A model generated the notes under the pieces. The model worked only from the letters and a program-made list of their open reading frames with translations, was not told where the DNA came from and ran no database searches. From the NCBI GenBank assembly GCA_013288485.1, contig JABDBW010000027.1, forward strand, positions 1 to 32,068: a stretch of 32,068 bases of DNA, in the 5' to 3' direction. The stretch is from Bacteroidota bacterium (GTDB lineage: Bacteria > Bacteroidota > Bacteroidia > Sphingobacteriales > Sphingobacteriaceae). Shown here in pieces: positions 1,447-11,381 of the stretch. The position numbers were made by a program, and so were the translations under genes. Position 1 is the first letter of the stretch; each line of letters begins with the position of its first letter.

Positions 1447-2712
1447 ATGCAGGGACAACTATTCACCCTAATTTTAATTGGTATTGGCCTTTTCCTGATC
1501 GATCTGTATTTAGCCAATGGTTTTGCCGCGGCTTTTAAACGCTTATCTTTTTCCAATAAAAGAGGTATTAAATTGGGGTATCGGATATTTTCATTATTGC
1601 TGATAGCCGGTACTATTGTAAGTATTTATTTTAAAATACCTCTAGGAGCACGTGCCGGTATATTGATGGTATTTTTTGTATTGGCAATAGTAAAAGTTAC
1701 GTTACTACCCTTTGTTTTATTTGATGATGCCCGGCGCTTATTTATTTGGATAAAAAGACGCACAAAAAAATCAACCGATCAAGTTAATGCGAACGCCATA
1801 ACACGTTCAGAATTTCTGATGAAGGCCGGGTTAATTGCAGGTGCTGTTCCATTAGCGGCAATAGGGGTCGGCATAGTTTCGGGTGCTTATGATTACCGGG
1901 TACGCTATCAAACTTTATATCTGCCCAATTTACCCAAAGCGTTTGACGGTATTAAATTAGGGCAGATATCTGACATACATTCCGGCAGTTTTTATAATAA
2001 AAAAGCAGTTGCTGGGGGTGTGGGGATGCTGCTGCGCGAAAAACCCGACTTTATTTTCTTTACCGGCGACCTGGTTAACCGGCGCACCGATGAAGTTTAT
2101 GGCTACCAGGATATATTCAGCAAGGTAAAAGCGCCGCTGGGTGTTTTCTCCTCATTAGGGAATCATGATTATGGTGATTATGATAACTGGCCATCACTTG
2201 CAGCCAAACAAAAAAACCTGGACGACCTGATCGCTACCCATAAAAACATGGGTTGGGACTTACTGCTTAATGAAAACCGCCGCCTCAAAGTTAATGGCGA
2301 AGAGATAGGCATTTTAGGCTGTGAAAACTGGGGTGAACTAACGCGTTTTCCAAAATACGGACGTATGGAACCTACTGTAAAAAACACGGATGACCTACCC
2401 GTAAAATTATTATTATCCCACGATCCCTCACATTGGCGGGCGCAGATATTGCCCCATTACCCGCAAATTGATGTCATGTTCTCGGGCCACACGCATGGTA
2501 TGCAGTTTGGTGTGCGCGCCGAACATTTTCAATGGAGTCCGGTAGAATATGTGTATAAAGAATGGGCCGGTCTTTACCACGAAGGCAACCAGCAGTTATA
2601 TGTAAATGTTGGCTATGGGTTTTTAGGCTTCCCGGGTAGGGTTGGAATATTGCCCGAGATTACGATATTTACATTGAAATCCGCTCATAATCCTTTACTT
2701 AAAAAAGTTTAA
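1447..2712 (+). CDS. Membrane-anchored metallophosphoesterase (YkuE-like, calcineurin fold)
   Basis: The 421-residue protein has an N-terminal membrane part with about four hydrophobic segments (near residues 5-24, 46-63, 70-92 and 127-147) and a C-terminal calcineurin-like phosphoesterase domain. The full metal-binding set is visible: D176-x-H178, G207-D208, GNHD at 238-241, H325 and GHTH at 347-350. This is the layout of YkuE-like enzymes, dinuclear metal phosphoesterases whose substrates are mostly unknown; some family members act on lipids or UDP-diacylglucosamine. The ATG at 1447 follows the ATPase stop by 7 bases, suggesting co-transcription. The catalytic domain probably lies outside the cytoplasm, but I infer this only from the membrane segments. 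The substrate cannot be told from sequence. Confidence 0.9.
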   Translation: MQGQLFTLILIGIGLFLIDLYLANGFAAAFKRLSFSNKRGIKLGYRIFSLLLIAGTIVSIYFKIPLGARAGILMVFFVLAIVKVTLLPFVLFDDARRLFIWIKRRTKKSTDQVNANAITRSEFLMKAGLIAGAVPLAAIGVGIVSGAYDYRVRYQTLYLPNLPKAFDGIKLGQISDIHSGSFYNKKAVAGGVGMLLREKPDFIFFTGDLVNRRTDEVYGYQDIFSKVKAPLGVFSSLGNHDYGDYDNWPSLAAKQKNLDDLIATHKNMGWDLLLNENRRLKVNGEEIGILGCENWGELTRFPKYGRMEPTVKNTDDLPVKLLLSHDPSHWRAQILPHYPQIDVMFSGHTHGMQFGVRAEHFQWSPVEYVYKEWAGLYHEGNQQLYVNVGYGFLGFPGRVGILPEITIFTLKSAHNPLLKKV

Positions 2713-2739
2713 AATTACCAGGCGGTCGTTTCACCATAA

Positions 2740-3615
2740 ATGAAAAAATTAGTTAAGCCTGTTGTTGACTTTTTGCTGTTTAGCAACGTTTTTATGGCTT
2801 TGTGCGCTGTTGCCCAGGCGCTGGTTACCTTTCATTTAATAGGGTCAAAACCGCAGTATACCGTACTTGCTTTGTTGTTCACTTCAACAATTGGCGTTTA
2901 TAATTTTTCCATTCTCTTATCCAAACCAACAGAACCCAAAAAATCAGAATACGTGCGTATACGCTGGTTTTTTTCACATCACCGACTTATGGTTACTTTT
3001 ACTATCGTATCCATTCTTTCGCTGGTGCCCTTATTTTTTTTAATATCGACTGAATCCAGGCTACTACTTATTTTTTTGGGCATTATATCTTTTTCTTACA
3101 GTATTCCGATGTTTACGCTGGGCGATAAAAAATTCGGGTTGCGCCATATCCCGGGTTTAAAGCAATTTTTGATTACGTTGGTTTGGACTATGGGCAGTGT
3201 GCTGTTACCCATTTTAGAGGCCAAAAATATGCACCTCACCAATATCTCCATGCGTGATATTAGTATTTTGTTAGCCAAACGGTTCTTATTCATAGGCGCG
3301 CTAACTGTCCCTTTTGATATCCGCGACCTTTTTGACGACCGCAGATTGGGCGTAAGAACCATCCCGGTAATATGGGGCGAAAAACGGGCCTACCTGTTTT
3401 GCCAGGTACTGCTGGCAGGTTATATAGTGCTAATGTTCCTTTACCGGAACAATGGTTTCAACCACGATTTTTGGGCGCTTACGCTAACCGCAATTTTAGC
3501 AGGATGGCTCATATTTAAATCTGAATGGGAAAAGAATGAGTATTATTATTTCTTTTACATGGATGGGGTATTAATACTGCAATACCTGCTACTATTGCTA
3601 TTTAACCAATTTTAA
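2740..3615 (+). CDS. UbiA-fold membrane protein lacking the first Asp-rich motif
   Basis: A 291-residue protein dominated by hydrophobic segments, about eight to nine membrane helices. The second prenyltransferase Asp motif is clear: D193-I-R-D196-L-F-D-D200, followed by RRLGVRTIPV, as in UbiA enzymes. The first motif, normally (N/D)DxxDxxxD, should lie near residue 55 but reads YNFSILLSKP, with only the Asn kept. UbiA enzymes move a prenyl group onto an aromatic or lipid acceptor and use both motifs to hold magnesium-diphosphate, so standard activity is doubtful. The gene sits 27 bases after the phosphoesterase and 4 bases before a methyltransferase, so a shared lipid or quinone-like substrate is possible but unproven. 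The ATG at 2740 is the first in frame and gives a plausible cytoplasmic N-terminus (MKKLVK). Confidence 0.75.
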   Translation: MKKLVKPVVDFLLFSNVFMALCAVAQALVTFHLIGSKPQYTVLALLFTSTIGVYNFSILLSKPTEPKKSEYVRIRWFFSHHRLMVTFTIVSILSLVPLFFLISTESRLLLIFLGIISFSYSIPMFTLGDKKFGLRHIPGLKQFLITLVWTMGSVLLPILEAKNMHLTNISMRDISILLAKRFLFIGALTVPFDIRDLFDDRRLGVRTIPVIWGEKRAYLFCQVLLAGYIVLMFLYRNNGFNHDFWALTLTAILAGWLIFKSEWEKNEYYYFFYMDGVLILQYLLLLLFNQF

Positions 3616-3619
3616 TAAA

Positions 3620-4237
3620 ATGGCTGCCAACTATAATAATTCTGCCTGGTTTTATGATAGCCTGGCAGGGTTAGTTTATGGCCGGGCACTAATTAATGCC
3701 CAGATATATTTACTGCAATTTGTACCGGAAAATGCAGACATTTTGATCGTTGGTGGGGGTACGGGTCGCATACTGGAAGAATTAACACACCTGCATCCAT
3801 CCGGTTTAACTATTACTTATGTAGAGGTAGCTGTAAATATGGTGGCACTTTCACGAAAAAGAAATGCAGGGGCAAACCAGGTAAATTTTATTACTGAGGC
3901 GATAGAAAATGTTGCATTAGCCATTGGTTTTGATGTGATCATTACTCCTTTTTTATTTGATAATTTCACCGAACAAACCTTACAGAAAGTGTTTAAGCAT
4001 TTGCATCCCCAACTTAAACCGGGCGGCCTATGGCTTAATACCGATTTTCAGTTAACCGGGAAATGGTGGCAGAATGTGCTGCTAAAAACCATGTTCGCAT
4101 TTTTCAAACTCATATGCCATATTGAAGCGTCGGCATTGCCCGAGATAGACAGCAAATTTGCGCGAAACAATTATAGTGTAATTGCTCAAAAAACTTTTTT
4201 TAGGGATTTTATAACCTCAACAGCTTATCGGAAATAA
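3620..4237 (+). CDS. Class I SAM-dependent methyltransferase
   Basis: A 205-residue protein with the Rossmann-fold motif I ILIVGGGTGRILEEL near residues 40-54, an acidic strand-2 end (YVEVA) that would bind the ribose, and a motif IV-like segment DVIITPFLFDNF. No signal peptide or membrane segment is evident. It begins 4 bases after the UbiA-fold gene and probably shares its mRNA. The pairing of a UbiA-like protein with a methyltransferase is reminiscent of quinone or isoprenoid-ring modification, but this protein does not carry diagnostic UbiE/MenG motifs, so the acceptor is unknown. Its stop codon abuts the stop of the convergent response regulator: TAA at 4235-4237 is followed directly by TTA at 4238-4240, leaving no room for a terminator between them. 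Confidence 0.8.
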   Translation: MAANYNNSAWFYDSLAGLVYGRALINAQIYLLQFVPENADILIVGGGTGRILEELTHLHPSGLTITYVEVAVNMVALSRKRNAGANQVNFITEAIENVALAIGFDVIITPFLFDNFTEQTLQKVFKHLHPQLKPGGLWLNTDFQLTGKWWQNVLLKTMFAFFKLICHIEASALPEIDSKFARNNYSVIAQKTFFRDFITSTAYRK

Positions 4238-4930
4238 TTATGGCTGGTAAGCAAACTTATACCCAATACCCCGCACGGTTTGTAAATATTGTGGGTAATC
4301 GGGATTTGTTTCTATCTTTTTACGCAGCCTTACAATGTGCATATCCAGCGTGCGCGTGTTTACATCGGCGTTATAACCCCATACTTCCATCATCAGTTCT
4401 TCGCGGTTAATCACCTTGTTCTTGTTTTTCAGGAAGTACAATAATATGCGGTTCTCCAATATGGTGAGTTCTATTTTTTTACCATCGCGTATCAGCAAAT
4501 GCGTATTGGGGTGATGCTCCATATTAGCAAAGTTGTACGACTCTGACTTTTCATTGTTCAACGCGAACTTTATCCGGTTATCTATCAACGCTACCAAAAC
4601 ATCCATGTTAAATGGTTTGGTTATATAATCAGATACGCCTAAATTATAAGCTGATATTTTGTCAATATCCTGCTGTTTCGCCGTAATCATGATCACCAGT
4701 TTATCAAACCCTTTAGCACGTATGCTGCTGCAAACTTCCGCCCCTTGCTTACCGGGCAGCATCCAGTCTAACAAAACAATATCCGGCTGTTCGGCCAGTA
4801 TCATTGTTTCGGCATCGTCGCCATTACTGGCTTCCAATACCTTATAACCCTCTGATTGTAAACGCTCGGCAACCAGGAAACGCAGGTTTTCATCATCTTC
4901 TACAAGCGCTATCTTTATTTCTTTGTTCAT
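4238..4930 (-). CDS. OmpR/PhoB-family response regulator
   Basis: 230 residues in two domains. The receiver domain (about 5-120) has the acidic pair D12-D13, phospho-acceptor D55 in LLDWMLPG, T83 and K105 (TKPF), all intact. The C-terminal winged-helix DNA-binding domain (about 135-228) shows the typical LTILENRILLYF, VINREELMMEVW and TRTLDMHIVRLRKKI segments and ends with the RGIGYKF wing. It should be phosphorylated by the kinase encoded just upstream, whose stop lies 2 bases before this start, and act as a DNA-binding transcription factor. No target site can be recognised in the window. It is the last gene of the lipoprotein-kinase-regulator operon and converges on the methyltransferase with zero spacing. 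Confidence 0.93.
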   Translation of the reverse strand: MNKEIKIALVEDDENLRFLVAERLQSEGYKVLEASNGDDAETMILAEQPDIVLLDWMLPGKQGAEVCSSIRAKGFDKLVIMITAKQQDIDKISAYNLGVSDYITKPFNMDVLVALIDNRIKFALNNEKSESYNFANMEHHPNTHLLIRDGKKIELTILENRILLYFLKNKNKVINREELMMEVWGYNADVNTRTLDMHIVRLRKKIETNPDYPQYLQTVRGIGYKFAYQP

Positions 4931-4932
4931 AT

Positions 4933-6576
4933 CTAATTTTCGTATGGAAATGTAACCACAAATTCCGAGCCCTTGTCAACTTTGCTTTTTACGGATATTT
5001 CACCATCCATAAAATTAACCAGTTCTTTGCAAAATGCCAGGCCGAGGCCTACGCTTCCGTTTTGGTTATATTGGTTTTCTAATCTATAAAACTTTTTGAA
5101 TATGTTATTTAATTCATTTTTGGGTACACCAATTCCTTTATCAATAAATGAAAATATAATATTACGTTTTTCGAGCGTAATATTTATAAAAAGCTCCTTT
5201 TTTTCGGGGTGCGAATATTTATAGGCATTTTCTACCAGGTTTTGAAATATACTGCCAAGCAACACCTCATCGGTATAAAAAAAATTCACGTTATTAATGT
5301 TATAGCTTAATTTAAAATCCGGATATTTTATTTTAAAAGTATTAATATAGCCTTTCACAAAGTGATCAATATCTATTTTGTCCTTGTTAATTTGGATAGA
5401 TTTATTTTCCAGCTGGGTGAATGATAGCAGCTTGTTCATTAATTCATTCAACTTATCGGCCTCTTCATCTAAAATCCGTCCATAGTGCTTACGTTGCCTG
5501 TCGGTAAGCTCATTGTCGCCTTTTAAATTAGAGCCTGCTATTTTTATTACGCTAACCGGTGTTTTAAACTCATGCGTAAAGTTATTTATAAAATCGTATT
5601 GCAATTTAAACAGCTTAAGGTTAACGTTGAGGTTACGGTAAATAAGCCAGCCTATCAGTATAAAAAAGAAATAGACCAATAATATAATACCACCAATAGG
5701 CATAAAGCGGCGGTTAATTTCGGCTGTAAGGTAATCGCGGGGCGAACTAAAATATAGCTTATAATCAGAAAGTGCCCCCGGAAATGCAACTTCGTTAGTG
5801 ATCGTTTTATCGGGGTCAATATCGATCGGGTCGTAATTTATCTGCCTGACAGATATTTTTTGATATAATTCGGGGTGTATGTTCTTAAATGTAATCTTAT
5901 GCGGATCGAGATAAAAAGTCATCATATTTTGCTTATATAATGATGTAGTGCGCCCGCTTTGCTGAAGCTCATGATAGGTTTTAAGCCCCTCGTTATTGGG
6001 TACATTCAAATAGCTGATCTTACCGGGCCGGGTATTATAAAATGTGCCCTGCTCTTCCTGACCTGGGCCTCTTGAAGTATCATAAGCTGTAATATAATCG
6101 CTTAGTTTATCGGCCATTTGACTGAAATCGTTCTTATTGATCTCGTTTTCATTTTTGGAACCTTTTACTTTGCGTTTGTTCGGATAGTATTGATAAGTGG
6201 CTTTAACCGATATGCCCAGGTTATTCCCCTTAGCACGCCCTGATAGGCGGTTACCTACAACGATCTGGTAAAAAACTATTTTTGTTACAAAATTAAAATC
6301 GTGAAAAATCGAATCGGCATAATTTGCCGCTAACGCTGAATCAAGTGACCCTGAATAATTAGTTATTTCGCGTATTTTACTTCTTGAAAAATAATTGTAA
6401 GGGCTAATAATTTGGTCAGCCACATCATTTTTTTTAGCAGCAAAATCGTTATTTACATTTTGTGCCGTAAACCTGTAAGCTACAATTAATACAACAATTA
6501 AAGTAACAGATACCAGCACCAAAAAAGCAACAATAAGTGAGAAGTTTTTCCGGTAAGCAGTGTTTGGGCCTTTCAT
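4933..6576 (-). CDS. Membrane sensor histidine kinase with a large unrecognised periplasmic domain
   Basis: I start it at the ATG at 6576 (protein MKGPNTAY..., 547 residues). The frame reaches a TTG at 6615, but that would overlap the upstream gene and adds unlikely residues. A membrane helix at about 12-34 and another at about 293-313 bracket a sensor domain of roughly 258 residues that I cannot assign. The kinase core follows: H-box FTHEFKTPVSV with phospho-acceptor H335, N-box NLVENAYKYSHP around 447-457, G1 DKGIGVP near 479-485 and G2 GSVGLGLAF near 507-515. All catalytic elements look intact. It begins 10 bases after the S9-like lipoprotein stop and ends 2 bases before its cognate regulator. 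The signal is unknown; the upstream lipoprotein is a candidate partner by position only. Confidence 0.92.
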   Translation of the reverse strand: MKGPNTAYRKNFSLIVAFLVLVSVTLIVVLIVAYRFTAQNVNNDFAAKKNDVADQIISPYNYFSRSKIREITNYSGSLDSALAANYADSIFHDFNFVTKIVFYQIVVGNRLSGRAKGNNLGISVKATYQYYPNKRKVKGSKNENEINKNDFSQMADKLSDYITAYDTSRGPGQEEQGTFYNTRPGKISYLNVPNNEGLKTYHELQQSGRTTSLYKQNMMTFYLDPHKITFKNIHPELYQKISVRQINYDPIDIDPDKTITNEVAFPGALSDYKLYFSSPRDYLTAEINRRFMPIGGIILLVYFFFILIGWLIYRNLNVNLKLFKLQYDFINNFTHEFKTPVSVIKIAGSNLKGDNELTDRQRKHYGRILDEEADKLNELMNKLLSFTQLENKSIQINKDKIDIDHFVKGYINTFKIKYPDFKLSYNINNVNFFYTDEVLLGSIFQNLVENAYKYSHPEKKELFINITLEKRNIIFSFIDKGIGVPKNELNNIFKKFYRLENQYNQNGSVGLGLAFCKELVNFMDGEISVKSKVDKGSEFVVTFPYEN

Positions 6577-6586
6577 TACCGTGGGA

Positions 6587-8527
6587 TTAATGCTTAACCC
6601 GCATGTTATTATCAAGGAATTTTTCTATCTGGGTATACCTGTCTACCCTCATACTATCAATTTCTGCAGTTGTTCTCGCCTTTTCATATTTTTTATAAAT
6701 TACCTGTACTTTTCGCTTTCTCAGGTCACGAACATAATCCTCTAATGCCAGAATATTTGCCTGTAGGTCCAACCTGTCCTGAAATATAATTACAGGCACC
6801 TTAATTTTATCGGGATGAAAAACGGGTGATATATCGATCAAATTATTGTTATCTTTTTTATTTGAAGGGTCGCCAATCATTTCATACATTCTTTGCAGGT
6901 ACATTTTTTGCAATGATGATTTATAAAAATCTGGGATTGTATTAATATACGAAAAAAAGTTAATAAGCCCATCCTGCACTATCGCGCAATTGTACATCTT
7001 CGGATTAAAAGAAACACCGTATAAAGCCGAAAAACCACCAAAACCCCGGCCATATATAGCAATTTTTTTAGCGTTAGCTATTTTATTGGCAATAAGCCAA
7101 TTTACGCCATCTGTAATATCCTGTTGCACTTTTCCTCCAACTTCTCTAAAACCAGCGTTTAAAAACTTTTTACCATAGCCGGATGAGCCCCTGTAATTAA
7201 CCTGTAAAACCGCGAAACCTCTGCTGGCTAAAAATTGCACATCGGCGTTATAGCCCCATGAGTTGCGCCCACCAAAAGGCCCGTCGTGCGGCATTACTAT
7301 TACCGGTAAATTTGTTTTATTAACACCCAGCGGTAGGGTAAGGTACCCATTTATATTAGTTATTCCATCGCTTGCTATGTAGTGAATAGGCTGCATGGCA
7401 CATAATTCGGCAGGATTGATGGTCGAGTTGTCGGCAAGCTTAGTTAGCTTACCGCCCAAACGTTCATAAAGGTAAACTGCGCCCCGGCTGCGGTCGTTAT
7501 ATGTAGTAACAATAAATTTATTTTCAGCGGTATCTCTGTCAATAATATTTATTTCGGCAGTATCCCTGCCGGCAATGTTTGACTCGCTGCCGTTTATCTG
7601 TTTATCAAGGTCATCATATATAGCTTTAATGGCAGCATCTAAAAAATGCTTCTTCGGTTTGGCTTCATCCCAGGCAGCCAATTCAAGGCGGTGTTTACTT
7701 CTTACATAGTCAACACGCTGTATATCGGCTTTATCATTTGCATAAATTACCCGTTCTTCTTTTGTATTTTCAGCATTAATTTCAACAAATTCCGTCCTGT
7801 CACGGTCAACATTCGATAAGGCATAGAAGTAGTTTTTCTTGCCCGTAAAGCCTATAGGTATTACTGAATTTTTAAAGTTGTTTTGTATAATAGCTTTAAA
7901 AGGCATCTTATCATTAGCCCTGTATAATATACTTTCATTGATACCGTCAGATGATTTGGCCAGCCGTATGCTTCCATCAGCATCTACAAACCAATCTTTT
8001 ATGTTTCCCGGATTGAGCAGGTACGTTTTTAATTCGCCGTTTTTAATGTTCAACCGGTATACGTCAGATTTAGCCGAATCCCGCTTATTCATAGCGATGG
8101 TTATTATATCGGGTGTTTGTCTGCTTTTATTTAATACCCTCACCCTAACTTTTTCTTCTGATAATAGCGGTTTTTTTTGTAAAGTCTTAACATCCAATAC
8201 ATACATCAGGTATTTATCATTAGGAAGGTTTATACTGAAAATGATCTGATCATCAAATGCCCAGCTGTAATCACGTACCGGAAAATCGGCGTAAGCAGTT
8301 GCCATTCGCTCTTTTCCATCTTCCAGTGATTGAATAAAAATATTTTGCCTTTTTTTATATTTTTTTAGGTATGAAATATATTTCCCATCCGGAGATATTT
8401 TAAAATAGCTTTTTTCAGGTGTATTAAAAAAATCGCTTACAGGTATTTCATTTGCTCCTTTATCCTTACAGGCATATAAAGCAACCGTAATAAAAATTAA
8501 AATTAATGTTTTCAGTCTGCCCACCAT
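6587..8527 (-). CDS. S9 prolyl-oligopeptidase-like lipoprotein, predicted catalytically inactive
   Basis: 646 residues. The N-terminus has a lipoprotein signal with lipobox L17-Y-A-C20. Residues about 30-390 resemble the beta-propeller of S9 peptidases (SPDGKYISYLKK) and about 400-646 the alpha/beta-hydrolase domain (NYRGSSGYGKKF). The nucleophile elbow, expected as GxSxGG, reads G-R-G-F-G-G: the Ser position is Gly495, codon GGT on the minus strand at 7045-7043. The acid D587 seems kept (QDRLD), but the segment where GHGF would give the His reads YKKYEKARTT, and the only His after D587 is the last residue. The frame is open on both sides, so this is not a frameshift. It heads an operon with a histidine kinase and regulator. 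An inactive binding or sensing protein is my inference; a non-canonical hydrolase is not excluded. Two imperfect RDTAE copies, 30 bases apart, lie around 7531-7570. Confidence 0.85.
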   Translation of the reverse strand: MVGRLKTLILIFITVALYACKDKGANEIPVSDFFNTPEKSYFKISPDGKYISYLKKYKKRQNIFIQSLEDGKERMATAYADFPVRDYSWAFDDQIIFSINLPNDKYLMYVLDVKTLQKKPLLSEEKVRVRVLNKSRQTPDIITIAMNKRDSAKSDVYRLNIKNGELKTYLLNPGNIKDWFVDADGSIRLAKSSDGINESILYRANDKMPFKAIIQNNFKNSVIPIGFTGKKNYFYALSNVDRDRTEFVEINAENTKEERVIYANDKADIQRVDYVRSKHRLELAAWDEAKPKKHFLDAAIKAIYDDLDKQINGSESNIAGRDTAEINIIDRDTAENKFIVTTYNDRSRGAVYLYERLGGKLTKLADNSTINPAELCAMQPIHYIASDGITNINGYLTLPLGVNKTNLPVIVMPHDGPFGGRNSWGYNADVQFLASRGFAVLQVNYRGSSGYGKKFLNAGFREVGGKVQQDITDGVNWLIANKIANAKKIAIYGRGFGGFSALYGVSFNPKMYNCAIVQDGLINFFSYINTIPDFYKSSLQKMYLQRMYEMIGDPSNKKDNNNLIDISPVFHPDKIKVPVIIFQDRLDLQANILALEDYVRDLRKRKVQVIYKKYEKARTTAEIDSMRVDRYTQIEKFLDNNMRVKH

Positions 8528-8678
8528 TTTTATTGTTAACCCAGGTTATAATCAGGTTAAATTATATAAATTACTTAGGTTTTTTAAAATGTCACTACAA
8601 TTTTACCCTATATAAACGTTATGTAAATATTCGGCGATATAAATGTGTGATTGATTTTTTATTAATTATTTTTAACAA
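8528..8678. promoter_or_regulatory. Divergent intergenic region between the S9-like operon and the TPR gene
   Basis: This A+T-rich stretch of 151 bases separates two genes transcribed away from each other, so it must hold the promoters of both the lipoprotein-kinase-regulator operon (leftward) and the TPR gene (rightward). I searched both strands by eye for the Bacteroidota -7 box TAnnTTTG and found no exact match. No strong hairpin or direct repeat is evident. Confidence 0.5.
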
Positions 8679-10481
8679 ATGAAAAGAATATTGGCTTATA
8701 TTTTTCTGGTTGCCATAAGTTGTTCCAAACTGTTGGCGCAAAGCGATGAATTGCTGCTGGCAAAGCAATATAACGCCAATGGGGAGCATGAAAAAGCGCT
8801 CGAAATATATCAAAAATTGTATAAGCAGGATAATGACACTTACTATAAAGAATATGTAAGCACATTGATAGCGATCAAAAAATTTGATGATGCGGAAAAC
8901 ATAACCAAAAAAATAATACGAAAACACCCTAATGCCACCGAGTATGTTATCACTTTAGGGGCCATTTACACCCAGCATGGCGGTGTTGATAAAGCTAATG
9001 CCTTGTACGACGGTCTGATTAAAAGCCTGCCTGCCAATCAGAACGCGATTGCCACACTCGCTTCCCAGTTTTACCAGGGCTTGAACCCTGATTATGCGAT
9101 AAAAACTTTTTTGCAGGGCCGCAAATTATTGCATGATGATAATCAGTTTGCGTATGAACTTATAACACTTTACCGTTTTAAAAGAAATAAAGTTGCCCTG
9201 ATCGAGGAGTATTTAAACATACTACCCGCAAATAACAGTTTTCTGAACCAGGCCGAAAATTCGCTCGCCACTCTATTTGAAGGTGATGCTGATTATGATA
9301 CTTTACGGGTAGCTTTATTAAAACGGATACAAAAATATCCACAGGAAACCGTTTTTGTTAATTTTTTAACCTGGCAATTTTTACAGCAAAAAGATTTTGA
9401 CCAGGCGTTAAACCAAGCCCTCGCATTAAGCAGAAGGACCAATGACGATGGCGGCGATATTTTTGAACTATGCCGCACACTGGTTGCCAATGAGGCCTAT
9501 GACACGGCCATACGCGGGTATGACTACCTTATAAGCAAGGGGAAGGGGCAGCCATTTTATATAACGGCAAAAATTGAGTTAATAAACACTAAAAACTTAA
9601 AGGTAACATCAGGAAAATATGTACAAAGCGACCTTGTAGACCTTGAAAAAAACTATACAGACCTCATAGCTGAATTTGGCAGCAATAGTTCAACCGCTTT
9701 TGCCCTGCAAAAACTGGCCAACCTACAGACTTTTAAATTGCATAAATTAAATGAGGCGCAAAAAGTGCTGGAAGACGCTATAAAAATACCCGATATGCCG
9801 GCCAATTTGCGCGCCGCGTGTAAACTCGACCTGGGCGATGTATACTTATTAAATAACCAGCCCTGGGAAGCCACACTGCTGTATAGCCAGGTAGAAAAGG
9901 ATTATCCCAATACTACTATAGGGCAGGATGCTAAATTCAGAAATGCTAAATTTGCTTATTATACCGGCGATTTTACCTGGGCCAAGGGGCAGCTTGATGT
10001 TTTAAAAGCGGCAACATCACAATTGATAGCTAACGACGCGCTTAACCTATCGCTCTTAATTGCTGATAATGTAGCTGTTGATACCAGCGGTAGCGCATTG
10101 AAAATGTATGCCCGCGCAGATCTGCAAATATTTGCTGAACAACAGGAAAAAGCCATACAGGTTTTGGATAGCATTAACATCAAGTTCCCGAACAATACGT
10201 TGAGCGATGATATTTTAATGGCGAAAGCGCGTATAGCGATACAACAAAAAAATTATGCTGATGCCATGGCCGACCTTAAAAAAATAATAGCTGAGCACCC
10301 CGCCGATCTGTGGGCTGATGATGCTGTTTTTATGATCGGCGATATTTATGAAAATCAGCTCGCTGACAAAGAGCAGGCTAAAATTTATTATCAAAAAATA
10401 ATAACCGATTACCCCGGCAGTTTATGGATAAATGAAGCACGCAAGCGATTTAGAAAATTACGCGGCGATAGTGCATCCTGA
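8679..10481 (+). CDS. Secreted tetratricopeptide-repeat protein
   Basis: 600 residues beginning with a signal peptide (MKRILAYIFLVAISCSK) most likely cleaved after LLA, before QSDE; the Cys at 15 makes a lipoprotein a weaker alternative. TPR-like helical pairs run through most of the length: clear units lie near residues 23-60 (AKQYNANGEHEKALEIYQKL), 60-130, 310-400 and again in the last 110 residues (YADAMADLKKIIAEHP, KEQAKIYYQKIITDYPGS). The C-terminal part resembles the TPR regions of BamD/YbgF-type periplasmic proteins. TPR proteins act as scaffolds, and no catalytic domain is visible. It stands first in a rightward group with a DUF4286 gene 45 bases downstream. Its specific partner is unknown. 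Confidence 0.85.
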   Translation: MKRILAYIFLVAISCSKLLAQSDELLLAKQYNANGEHEKALEIYQKLYKQDNDTYYKEYVSTLIAIKKFDDAENITKKIIRKHPNATEYVITLGAIYTQHGGVDKANALYDGLIKSLPANQNAIATLASQFYQGLNPDYAIKTFLQGRKLLHDDNQFAYELITLYRFKRNKVALIEEYLNILPANNSFLNQAENSLATLFEGDADYDTLRVALLKRIQKYPQETVFVNFLTWQFLQQKDFDQALNQALALSRRTNDDGGDIFELCRTLVANEAYDTAIRGYDYLISKGKGQPFYITAKIELINTKNLKVTSGKYVQSDLVDLEKNYTDLIAEFGSNSSTAFALQKLANLQTFKLHKLNEAQKVLEDAIKIPDMPANLRAACKLDLGDVYLLNNQPWEATLLYSQVEKDYPNTTIGQDAKFRNAKFAYYTGDFTWAKGQLDVLKAATSQLIANDALNLSLLIADNVAVDTSGSALKMYARADLQIFAEQQEKAIQVLDSINIKFPNNTLSDDILMAKARIAIQQKNYADAMADLKKIIAEHPADLWADDAVFMIGDIYENQLADKEQAKIYYQKIITDYPGSLWINEARKRFRKLRGDSAS

Positions 10482-10514
10482 TCAAAACCTGTTAGTTCCT
10501 GTTATCTTAATTTG

Positions 10515-10522
10515 TATTTTTG
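10515..10522 (+). promoter_or_regulatory. Putative Bacteroidota -7 promoter box TATTTTTG
   Basis: The octamer matches the Bacteroidota sigma-70-type consensus TAnnTTTG. It ends only 4 bases before the ATG at 10527, so a transcript starting a few bases downstream would be leaderless or nearly so. I see no good TTG -33 element at 17-23 bases upstream, so confidence is limited. Confidence 0.4.
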
Positions 10523-10526
10523 CGGC

Positions 10527-10829
10527 ATGATCATATATAATGAAACCATAATTGTGGATGAAGCCATCCATAAACAATGGTTAAGCTGGATGCAAAGCGA
10601 ATACATCCCGATGGTGATGAATACCGGTTATTTTAAGTCGTACAATATATTGAACGTTATCGATTCGCCCAATGATGGCGTTACCTATTGTATTCAATAC
10701 CTGGCGGATAAATTGGAAAACTTTAAGCAATTTAATGATAAACACCTGCAAGCTTTACAGGCTATTCATCAGCAGCGTTTCGAAAACCAGTTGGTGCTAT
10801 TTAATACTTTAATGCAAACCGTACACTAA
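10527..10829 (+). CDS. DUF4286 family small protein
   Basis: 100 residues starting MIIYNETIIVDEAIHKQWL, with WMQSEYIPMVMNTGYF following; this pattern is typical of the DUF4286 family found across Bacteroidota, whose function is unknown. A fold related to ferredoxin-like or antibiotic-biosynthesis-monooxygenase domains is plausible but not shown by the sequence. I chose the ATG at 10527 over an in-frame TTG at 10512 because family members begin at this MIIYN and because a -7 promoter box occupies 10515-10522. There is no signal peptide, so it should be cytoplasmic. The RmlC gene starts 3 bases after its stop, so the two are probably co-transcribed. Confidence 0.82.
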   Translation: MIIYNETIIVDEAIHKQWLSWMQSEYIPMVMNTGYFKSYNILNVIDSPNDGVTYCIQYLADKLENFKQFNDKHLQALQAIHQQRFENQLVLFNTLMQTVH

Positions 10830-10832
10830 AAA

Positions 10833-11381
10833 ATGAAAATTACAGAAACCAGTATTAAGGGGTTAATAATAATTGAACCGCAGGTATTTAAAGATGGCCG
10901 CGGGTATTTTTTTGAGAGCTATAGTAAAGCAAAATTTGCCGCTTCGGGAATAAATATTGATTTTTTACAAGACAATCAATCTCTTTCACAAAAAGGCACC
11001 ATACGGGGCTTGCACGCGCAATCTGCACCACATGCGCAGACCAAGTTAGTACGTGTAATAAGGGGCAGCGTTTTGGATGTAGCGATAGATGTTCGTAAAG
11101 ACTCGCCCACCTATGGAAAATATGAAGCCATTGAACTAAGCGGCAATAACCAGTTACAACTGTTAATTCCCGAAGGATTTTTGCATGGTTTTGCCACGCT
11201 GGAGGATGATACCATTTTTACCTACAAAGTAAATAACTACTATAGCAAAGAATGCGAGGTCGGTGTAATATGGAACGACCCTGTATTGGCTATAAACTGG
11301 GGCATAGCCGAACAGGATGCATTAATATCGCCAAAGGATGTGGTATTGCCTGAGTTTAGCGAATTCGTGAATCCATTTTAA
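10833..11381 (+). CDS. rfbC: dTDP-4-dehydrorhamnose 3,5-epimerase (RmlC)
   Basis: 182 residues, the normal length for RmlC, which epimerises C3 and C5 of dTDP-4-keto-6-deoxyglucose on the way to dTDP-L-rhamnose for surface polysaccharides. Family landmarks are intact: FFESY near 26-30, TIRGLH with H61, TKLVRV with K71, PEGFLHGF with H118, Y131 in FTYK, WNDP at 147-150 and D169 in SPKD, corresponding to the catalytic His/Lys/Tyr/Asp set of known RmlC enzymes. The usual partners RmlA, RmlB and RmlD are not in the window, so this copy is separated from a complete rhamnose operon. It is cytoplasmic, with no signal sequence, and follows the DUF4286 gene by 3 bases. Confidence 0.93.
   Translation: MKITETSIKGLIIIEPQVFKDGRGYFFESYSKAKFAASGINIDFLQDNQSLSQKGTIRGLHAQSAPHAQTKLVRVIRGSVLDVAIDVRKDSPTYGKYEAIELSGNNQLQLLIPEGFLHGFATLEDDTIFTYKVNNYYSKECEVGVIWNDPVLAINWGIAEQDALISPKDVVLPEFSEFVNPF

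Follow-up and report, generated by a model that had tools for sequence, protein, structure and literature searches.

The window, by which we mean the whole stretch of 32,068 nt analysed here (contig JABDBW010000027.1 of assembly GCA_013288485.1), carries a gene, S9L, for a lipoprotein with the predicted fold of family S9 peptidases but without their catalytic Ser and His, followed by the genes of a histidine kinase and a response regulator (Table 1). The S9L frame runs from ATG to TAA with no internal stops and encodes 646 amino acids, with Cys20 placed in the motif LYAC, which confirms the intact frame and lipobox claimed in the initial annotation. The kinase, whose FTHEFKTP motif we take to be the His box, has an alternative TTG start at 6615 which would overlap S9L; the predicted structure of its sensor reached a pLDDT of 34.8. 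The three genes stand within a block (1447-11381: phosphoesterase, UbiA, methyltransferase, (regulator, kinase, S9L), TPR, DUF4286, RmlC) whose order is largely kept across genera of the family. The nearest named relative of S9L is that of Mucilaginibacter corticis (L001), lineage Sphingobacteriaceae; the genus and the family referred to below are those of the window, probably Mucilaginibacter and Sphingobacteriaceae.

Table 1. Features of the S9L locus (positions are those of the window).
Feature	Position	Strand	Basis or remark
S9L, S9-fold lipoprotein lacking the catalytic Ser and His, 646 aa	6587..8527	-	ORF, PF00326, model, structural matches
Signal peptide and lipobox LYAC, lipidated Cys20 (TGT)	8468..8527	-	sequence; Cys column 139/139 genus sequences
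S9L beta-propeller domain, about residues 39-375	7403..8413	-	model secondary structure, structural matches 26-646; boundary approximate
S9L alpha/beta-hydrolase domain, about residues 376-645	6593..7402	-	PF00326 424-642, model
Gly495 (GGT) at nucleophile position, elbow GRGFGG	7043..7045	-	alignment
Asp587 (GAC), catalytic acid kept	6767..6769	-	alignment
Arg618, near-constant in genus (129/139); Gly in 22/22 class-level relatives outside the family	6674..6676	-	
Thr619 (ACA) in catalytic-His column	6671..6673	-	aligns without gaps to NEGHGF in intact relatives
Histidine kinase	4933..6576	-	HisKA, HATPase_c; ATG 10 nt after S9L stop
Kinase sensor half	about 5677-6477	-	
Response regulator, receiver and winged-helix domains	4238..4930	-	ATG 2 nt after kinase stop
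Divergent TPR-repeat gene	8679..10481	+	conserved upstream neighbour; used as control

The S9 hydrolase-domain profile PF00326 matched residues 424-642 of S9L at 96.2 bits (cut-off 22.6), and at E ≤ 0.01 Pfam returned no family beyond three hydrolase ones; the scores for Dpp5 (NF053518; 63 of 900 bits) and for the Atxe2 lasso isopeptidase (NF033523; 50.3 of 400 bits) fell below their curated cut-offs. A structure model prepared from nine sequences (pLDDT 81.0, pTM 0.81) gave acylaminoacyl peptidases and other S9 enzymes as its top structural matches over residues 26-646, with 575 residues of 5l8s_A aligned at a Z of 29.5 and an rmsd of 4.3 and several S9 entries tied; in this model S9L has both the propeller and the alpha/beta-hydrolase fold of S9. 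The window's S9L alone (1/139 genus sequences) carries a 10-residue insertion at residues 315-324 (7556-7585), with a further copy of its motif RDTAE within a few residues, and resembles a recent short tandem duplication; a second, shorter insertion (about 5 residues) is found around residues 541-546. The lipobox pattern was recognized in 172/199 sequences, and 25 of the 27 that missed it were inspected and mostly have the Cys with a non-standard or cut N-terminus. Surface export of lipoproteins needs more acidic residues at +2 to +5; of the 172 in which the lipobox is clear, 91 have none at these positions and 68 have one.

We examined the catalytic positions throughout the genus. S9L was detected in 142/149 genus genomes (E ≤ 1e-20) and in 117/117 of those near complete (at least 90% complete, at most 5% contamination); the window's own assembly is 61.8% complete. 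Sequences from 140 of the 142 genomes (G138 and G087 left out), together with the named locus L001, gave 139 distinct sequences once identical cores were removed. Position 495 is G in 102 of these, R in 28, S in 7, A in 1 and W in 1, and position 619 is never His: three sequences have a gap there and the other 136 show eleven different residues, while position 587 is Asp in 136/139. The seven sequences with Ser at 495 (L029, L042, L046, L049, L050, L061 and L138) have no His, as if the column drifts freely. The His residues of S9L itself (279, 294, 382, 414, 571 and 646) all lie outside the catalytic-His column, and the alignment offers no conserved Ser or His that might serve as a replacement elsewhere in the pocket. 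An error in a single assembly as the cause of the missing Ser and His is ruled out, since the loss spans the genus. The initial annotation had read the nucleophile as Gly495 in GRGFGG with Asp587 kept and had seen no His at the expected GHGF; the alignment agrees on each point, and the genus set supports a loss of both residues across an entire clade. Whether Gly and the missing His are fixed in a clade, which was to be checked with homologues, received a divided answer: the absence of His is fixed in the genus, whereas Gly is common and not fixed.

The surroundings of the catalytic positions have also changed. The HGGP loop reads HDGP in S9L, position 415 being Asp in 111/139 genus sequences versus Gly in 22/22 class-level relatives outside the family, and position 586 is Lys or Arg in 134/139, where the 22 outside relatives mostly carry Asn. 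The pocket segments NYRGSxGYG and FGGF are near-constant within the genus. Because the S9 profile and the modelled fold are present but the triad is incomplete, S9L was not filed as an S9 peptidase; judged by its sequence it is probably a non-catalytic homologue of family S9 (prolyl oligopeptidase).

S9L is under purifying selection. Over 84 genus pairs (80-97% identity, dS under 1.5, and not independent of each other) the median dN/dS was 0.043 and the highest 0.082, and over the 61 pairs where both copies are without the Ser the median was 0.035. A decayed gene in the genus is rejected by these ratios; together with the invariant lipobox Cys they uphold the earlier view of a maintained protein. 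Near-invariant columns within the genus number 62/270 in the hydrolase domain versus 35/332 in the propeller.

In the family sample, 240/251 genomes from 22/25 genera matched S9L at E ≤ 1e-50. Sixty orthologues from 21 other family genera comprise 23 with Ser and His, 27 with neither, 8 with His alone, none with Ser alone and 2 with gaps; at least one intact member was found among the sequences read in 11/22 genera and none in the other 11, many genera being sampled by one to three sequences. The nearest relatives outside the family are S9 peptidases of Bacteroidota and other groups (L002-L008, L278-L299; near full-length, 34-41% identity), and unlike S9L they have the Ser, Asp and His intact, in 22/22 class-level relatives (SYGGY, EGHGF; 22 of 40 outside-family matches were read) and in 7/7 further ones (L002-L008), with no such kinase adjoining. 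The residue that follows the nucleophile position is Phe (rarely Leu, Ile or Val) in the kinase-linked members, whereas it is Tyr in the unlinked relatives.

The history of the two residues was reconstructed upon a tree of 90 sequences (21 from the genus, 58 from other family genera excluding L216 and L248, 7 outside relatives and 4 paralogues), built without the active-site columns by a quick method, in which 50/87 inner branches are starred and four long rows are unsure. By parsimony an intact root was cheaper in every setting. Given that root, His was lost 9 times, or 8 times with one regain (fully resolved tree, equal costs). For Ser, the best tree gave losses/gains of 7/4, 9/2 or 13/1 depending upon the cost of regain; the range was 7-13 losses with 1-4 gains when the tree collapsed below 80 support was included, and collapse below 95 support gave losses/gains of 3/12, 12/3 or 16/1. 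Ser and His have been lost repeatedly in the family, and not in a single event. In nine independent pairs on starred branches the two residues changed in the same way 5.3 times on average and in opposite ways 0 times, which is not significant for joint direction (median p 0.06). Two intact kinase-linked members on long branches, L204 (g24) and L214 (g23), would serve as living examples of the presumed early, active form.

The kinase gene lies directly downstream of S9L in 87/87 testable family orthologues (at least 600 nt of downstream DNA; the window not counted; two others too short), and the regulator belongs to the unit in 20/20 family orthologues with enough DNA. Active and dead forms are linked to the kinase alike, 13/69 distinct linked sequences being intact. 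No kinase was found beside unlinked S9 paralogues (0/7) or beside the testable outside relatives (0/28: 0/7 for L002-L008 and 0/21 of the 22 class-level ones, L283 having just 230 nt downstream); at L007 a response-regulator-like match lies 1.5 kb away on the other strand. A wider kinase-linked system beyond the family was considered and rejected because, among 237 genomes sampled from the class, those kinase matches that lie beyond the family chiefly cover the catalytic half, starting at residue 199 or later and mostly near 285, and because none of the 20 kinase-like loci fetched from outside the family had an S9 neighbour. None of the best 25 of 76 NCBIfam families listed for the kinase and regulator reaches its cut-off: MtrB scored 88.2 of 450 bits and MtrA 190.9 of 300, PhoB 139.8 of 270, RprY 126.7 of 370 and PhoR 103.5 of 500, with RprX absent among the best 25 of the 76, so that the pair is assigned neither to MtrB/MtrA nor to PhoBR or RprXY.

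There are lineages in which S9L is missing or broken. Genus g11, which has small genomes, has the kinase in 5/6 genomes and no S9L, and at its five kinase loci (L249-L253) the TPR gene adjoins the kinase in 5/5 with no S9 match, the regulator being kept. Six genomes of g16 were inspected; in G305 S9L falls into two separate frames, and in G273 it is interrupted by two stops. The g16 copy in G217 has one stop (g16 loci L213, L216, L222 and L225). Genome G211 of g21, rated 100% complete, has neither S9L nor the kinase. The seven genomes of the window's own genus without S9L are 58-86% complete, and the kinase match is missing from them too. The loss in g11 and the broken g16 copies make S9L dispensable in some lineages though useful, and a modulator fits these data better than an obligate receptor.

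Within the genus, S9L diverges in step with the sensor half of the kinase. Over 45 loci (the nearest to the window by search rank, the window itself left out) S9L distances correlated with those of the sensor half at a rho of 0.856, versus 0.34 for the kinase core and 0.51 for the TPR gene, whose protein matches S9L in speed of divergence (means 0.459 and 0.452); the partial correlation of S9L with the sensor half was 0.81 and was matched by 0/2000 permutations. Sliding windows placed the drop in co-divergence where the HisKA region starts. With 16 spaced sequences the value was 0.74, and without the seven loci nearest the window it was 0.49 (controls 0.25 and 0.29). Across other genera the co-divergence was not specific: the partial correlation was 0.47 (n=19), with the kinase core correlating equally, and -0.21 (n=24). 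The within-genus signal could also arise by strain-to-strain exchange of a contiguous block of DNA holding S9L and the sensor region.

We propose, at a probability of about 0.55, that S9L is the lipoprotein third component of this kinase-regulator pair, acting outside the cytoplasm to control the histidine kinase with which it is presumably co-transcribed. The grounds are the linkage to the kinase, the repeated loss of the catalytic residues, the purifying selection and the within-genus co-divergence with the sensor half. The hydrolase pocket, catalytically dead as judged from the alignment, would hold either a partner from the envelope or a ligand in the periplasm, possibly a peptide; S9L would then contact the sensor domain and shift the activity of the kinase, and the regulator would alter transcription. 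The ancestor would have been a catalytically active S9 peptidase whose gene already adjoined that of the kinase, with catalysis lost repeatedly once the regulatory role sufficed. The presence of the kinase without S9L in g11, the broken g16 copies and the unspecific co-divergence across genera all speak against this proposal. The notion of sensing put forward in the initial annotation does gain support from the invariable kinase neighbour and from the sensor co-divergence within the genus.

Gene adjacency fits equally well with S9L as the output of the pair and not its input, i.e., an envelope chaperone, scaffold or binding lipoprotein controlled by the regulator through autoregulation of the operon, with no contact to the kinase. 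The kinase pair that persists without S9L in g11, and the cross-genus comparison, in which the sensor had no special part, would suit such a role; however, within the genus S9L distances track the sensor half over the core of the same kinase, and we regard an output role as unlikely. Erosion of a gene with little function left would account for its absence beside the g11 kinase, for the breakage in 2/6 g16 genomes and for a nucleophile column free to vary within the genus, but it seems highly improbable for a gene with dN/dS ratios this low (at most 0.082 in any of the pairs) that keeps Cys20 in every genus sequence and is present in every near-complete genus genome.

S9L might still be an enzyme, its pocket either using a different nucleophile or carrying out a hydrolysis other than that of a peptidase. 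The near-constant NYRGSxGYG and FGGF segments, the retention of Asp587 and the seven genus sequences with Ser at 495 would suit such an activity, which nevertheless appears improbable when the alignment offers no conserved Ser or His substitute, position 495 may be G, R, S, A or W, position 619 takes its eleven residues, and the HGGP loop is altered as well.

Returning to the third-component proposal, its nearest parallels include DPP6 and DPP10, which, in PMC4350108 and PMC4873792, are described as inactive S9B proteins that serve as subunits of Kv4 channels, with fly DPP10 still holding both roles. These proteins, as portrayed there, combine a propeller and a hydrolase domain in which the nucleophile Ser is replaced and are kept for a regulatory partnership; S9L likewise has its Ser replaced, by Gly495, in a fold that its model predicts to be kept. 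DPP6 and DPP10 show that the S9 fold can make the change from enzyme to regulatory subunit, and intact kinase-linked S9L orthologues might hold both roles as fly DPP10 does. The nucleophile is Gly in both DPP10 and S9L (elbow GKGYGG in human DPP10, GRGFGG in S9L). By the same account, DPP10 retains its His (His-759) and Asp whereas S9L has lost the His too (Thr619), and DPP10 is a channel subunit and type II membrane protein whereas S9L is a lipoprotein linked to a histidine kinase. Inactive DPP10 (4wjl) matched S9L at E 2.5e-4 over residues 437-535, with no close sequence kinship.

LpqB, the lipoprotein of the actinobacterial MtrAB-LpqB system, has a propeller. According to PMC5845573 and PMC10714768, MtrAB-LpqB is a conserved gene unit in Actinobacteria with the regulator as its most conserved part, and LpqB interacts with MtrB and lowers its activity in M. 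smegmatis; the S9L unit resembles it in having a lipoprotein gene in a unit with those of a kinase and a regulator, and differs in gene order and phylum. Prc of Xanthomonas is, according to PMC6237974, a peptidase of the periplasm that binds the sensor of the histidine kinase VgrS and controls it, and by analogy could be a model for what an intact S9L does; as presented there it is a PDZ-domain protease of another fold that acts by cutting, and dead S9L would not be expected to cut. By analogy S9L may work like the DPP6/10 and LpqB cases, and we claim membership in neither group. Literature searches, within a collection that lacks most subscription journals, turned up no histidine-kinase unit containing a dead S9 protein.

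Dead S9 proteins are already known as animal channel subunits and lipoprotein-controlled kinases are known in Actinobacteria; a dead peptidase that stays beside the same signalling pair suggests a peptidase turned into a sensor part. Tentatively, and with more doubt than confidence, this can be taken further: within this one family, an S9 peptidase encoded beside a histidine kinase may have changed, on at least eight occasions, into a lipoprotein that binds a ligand in its vacated active site and so provides the input to three-component signalling, a bacterial counterpart of DPP10 with all stages alive. Genes annotated as S9 peptidase in the family would, from their sequences, often not encode peptidases. 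If the proposal is true, the family offers, next to a single conserved kinase, a natural series of proteins with both residues, without the Ser and without either, and the change from enzyme to receptor would become testable in soil bacteria.
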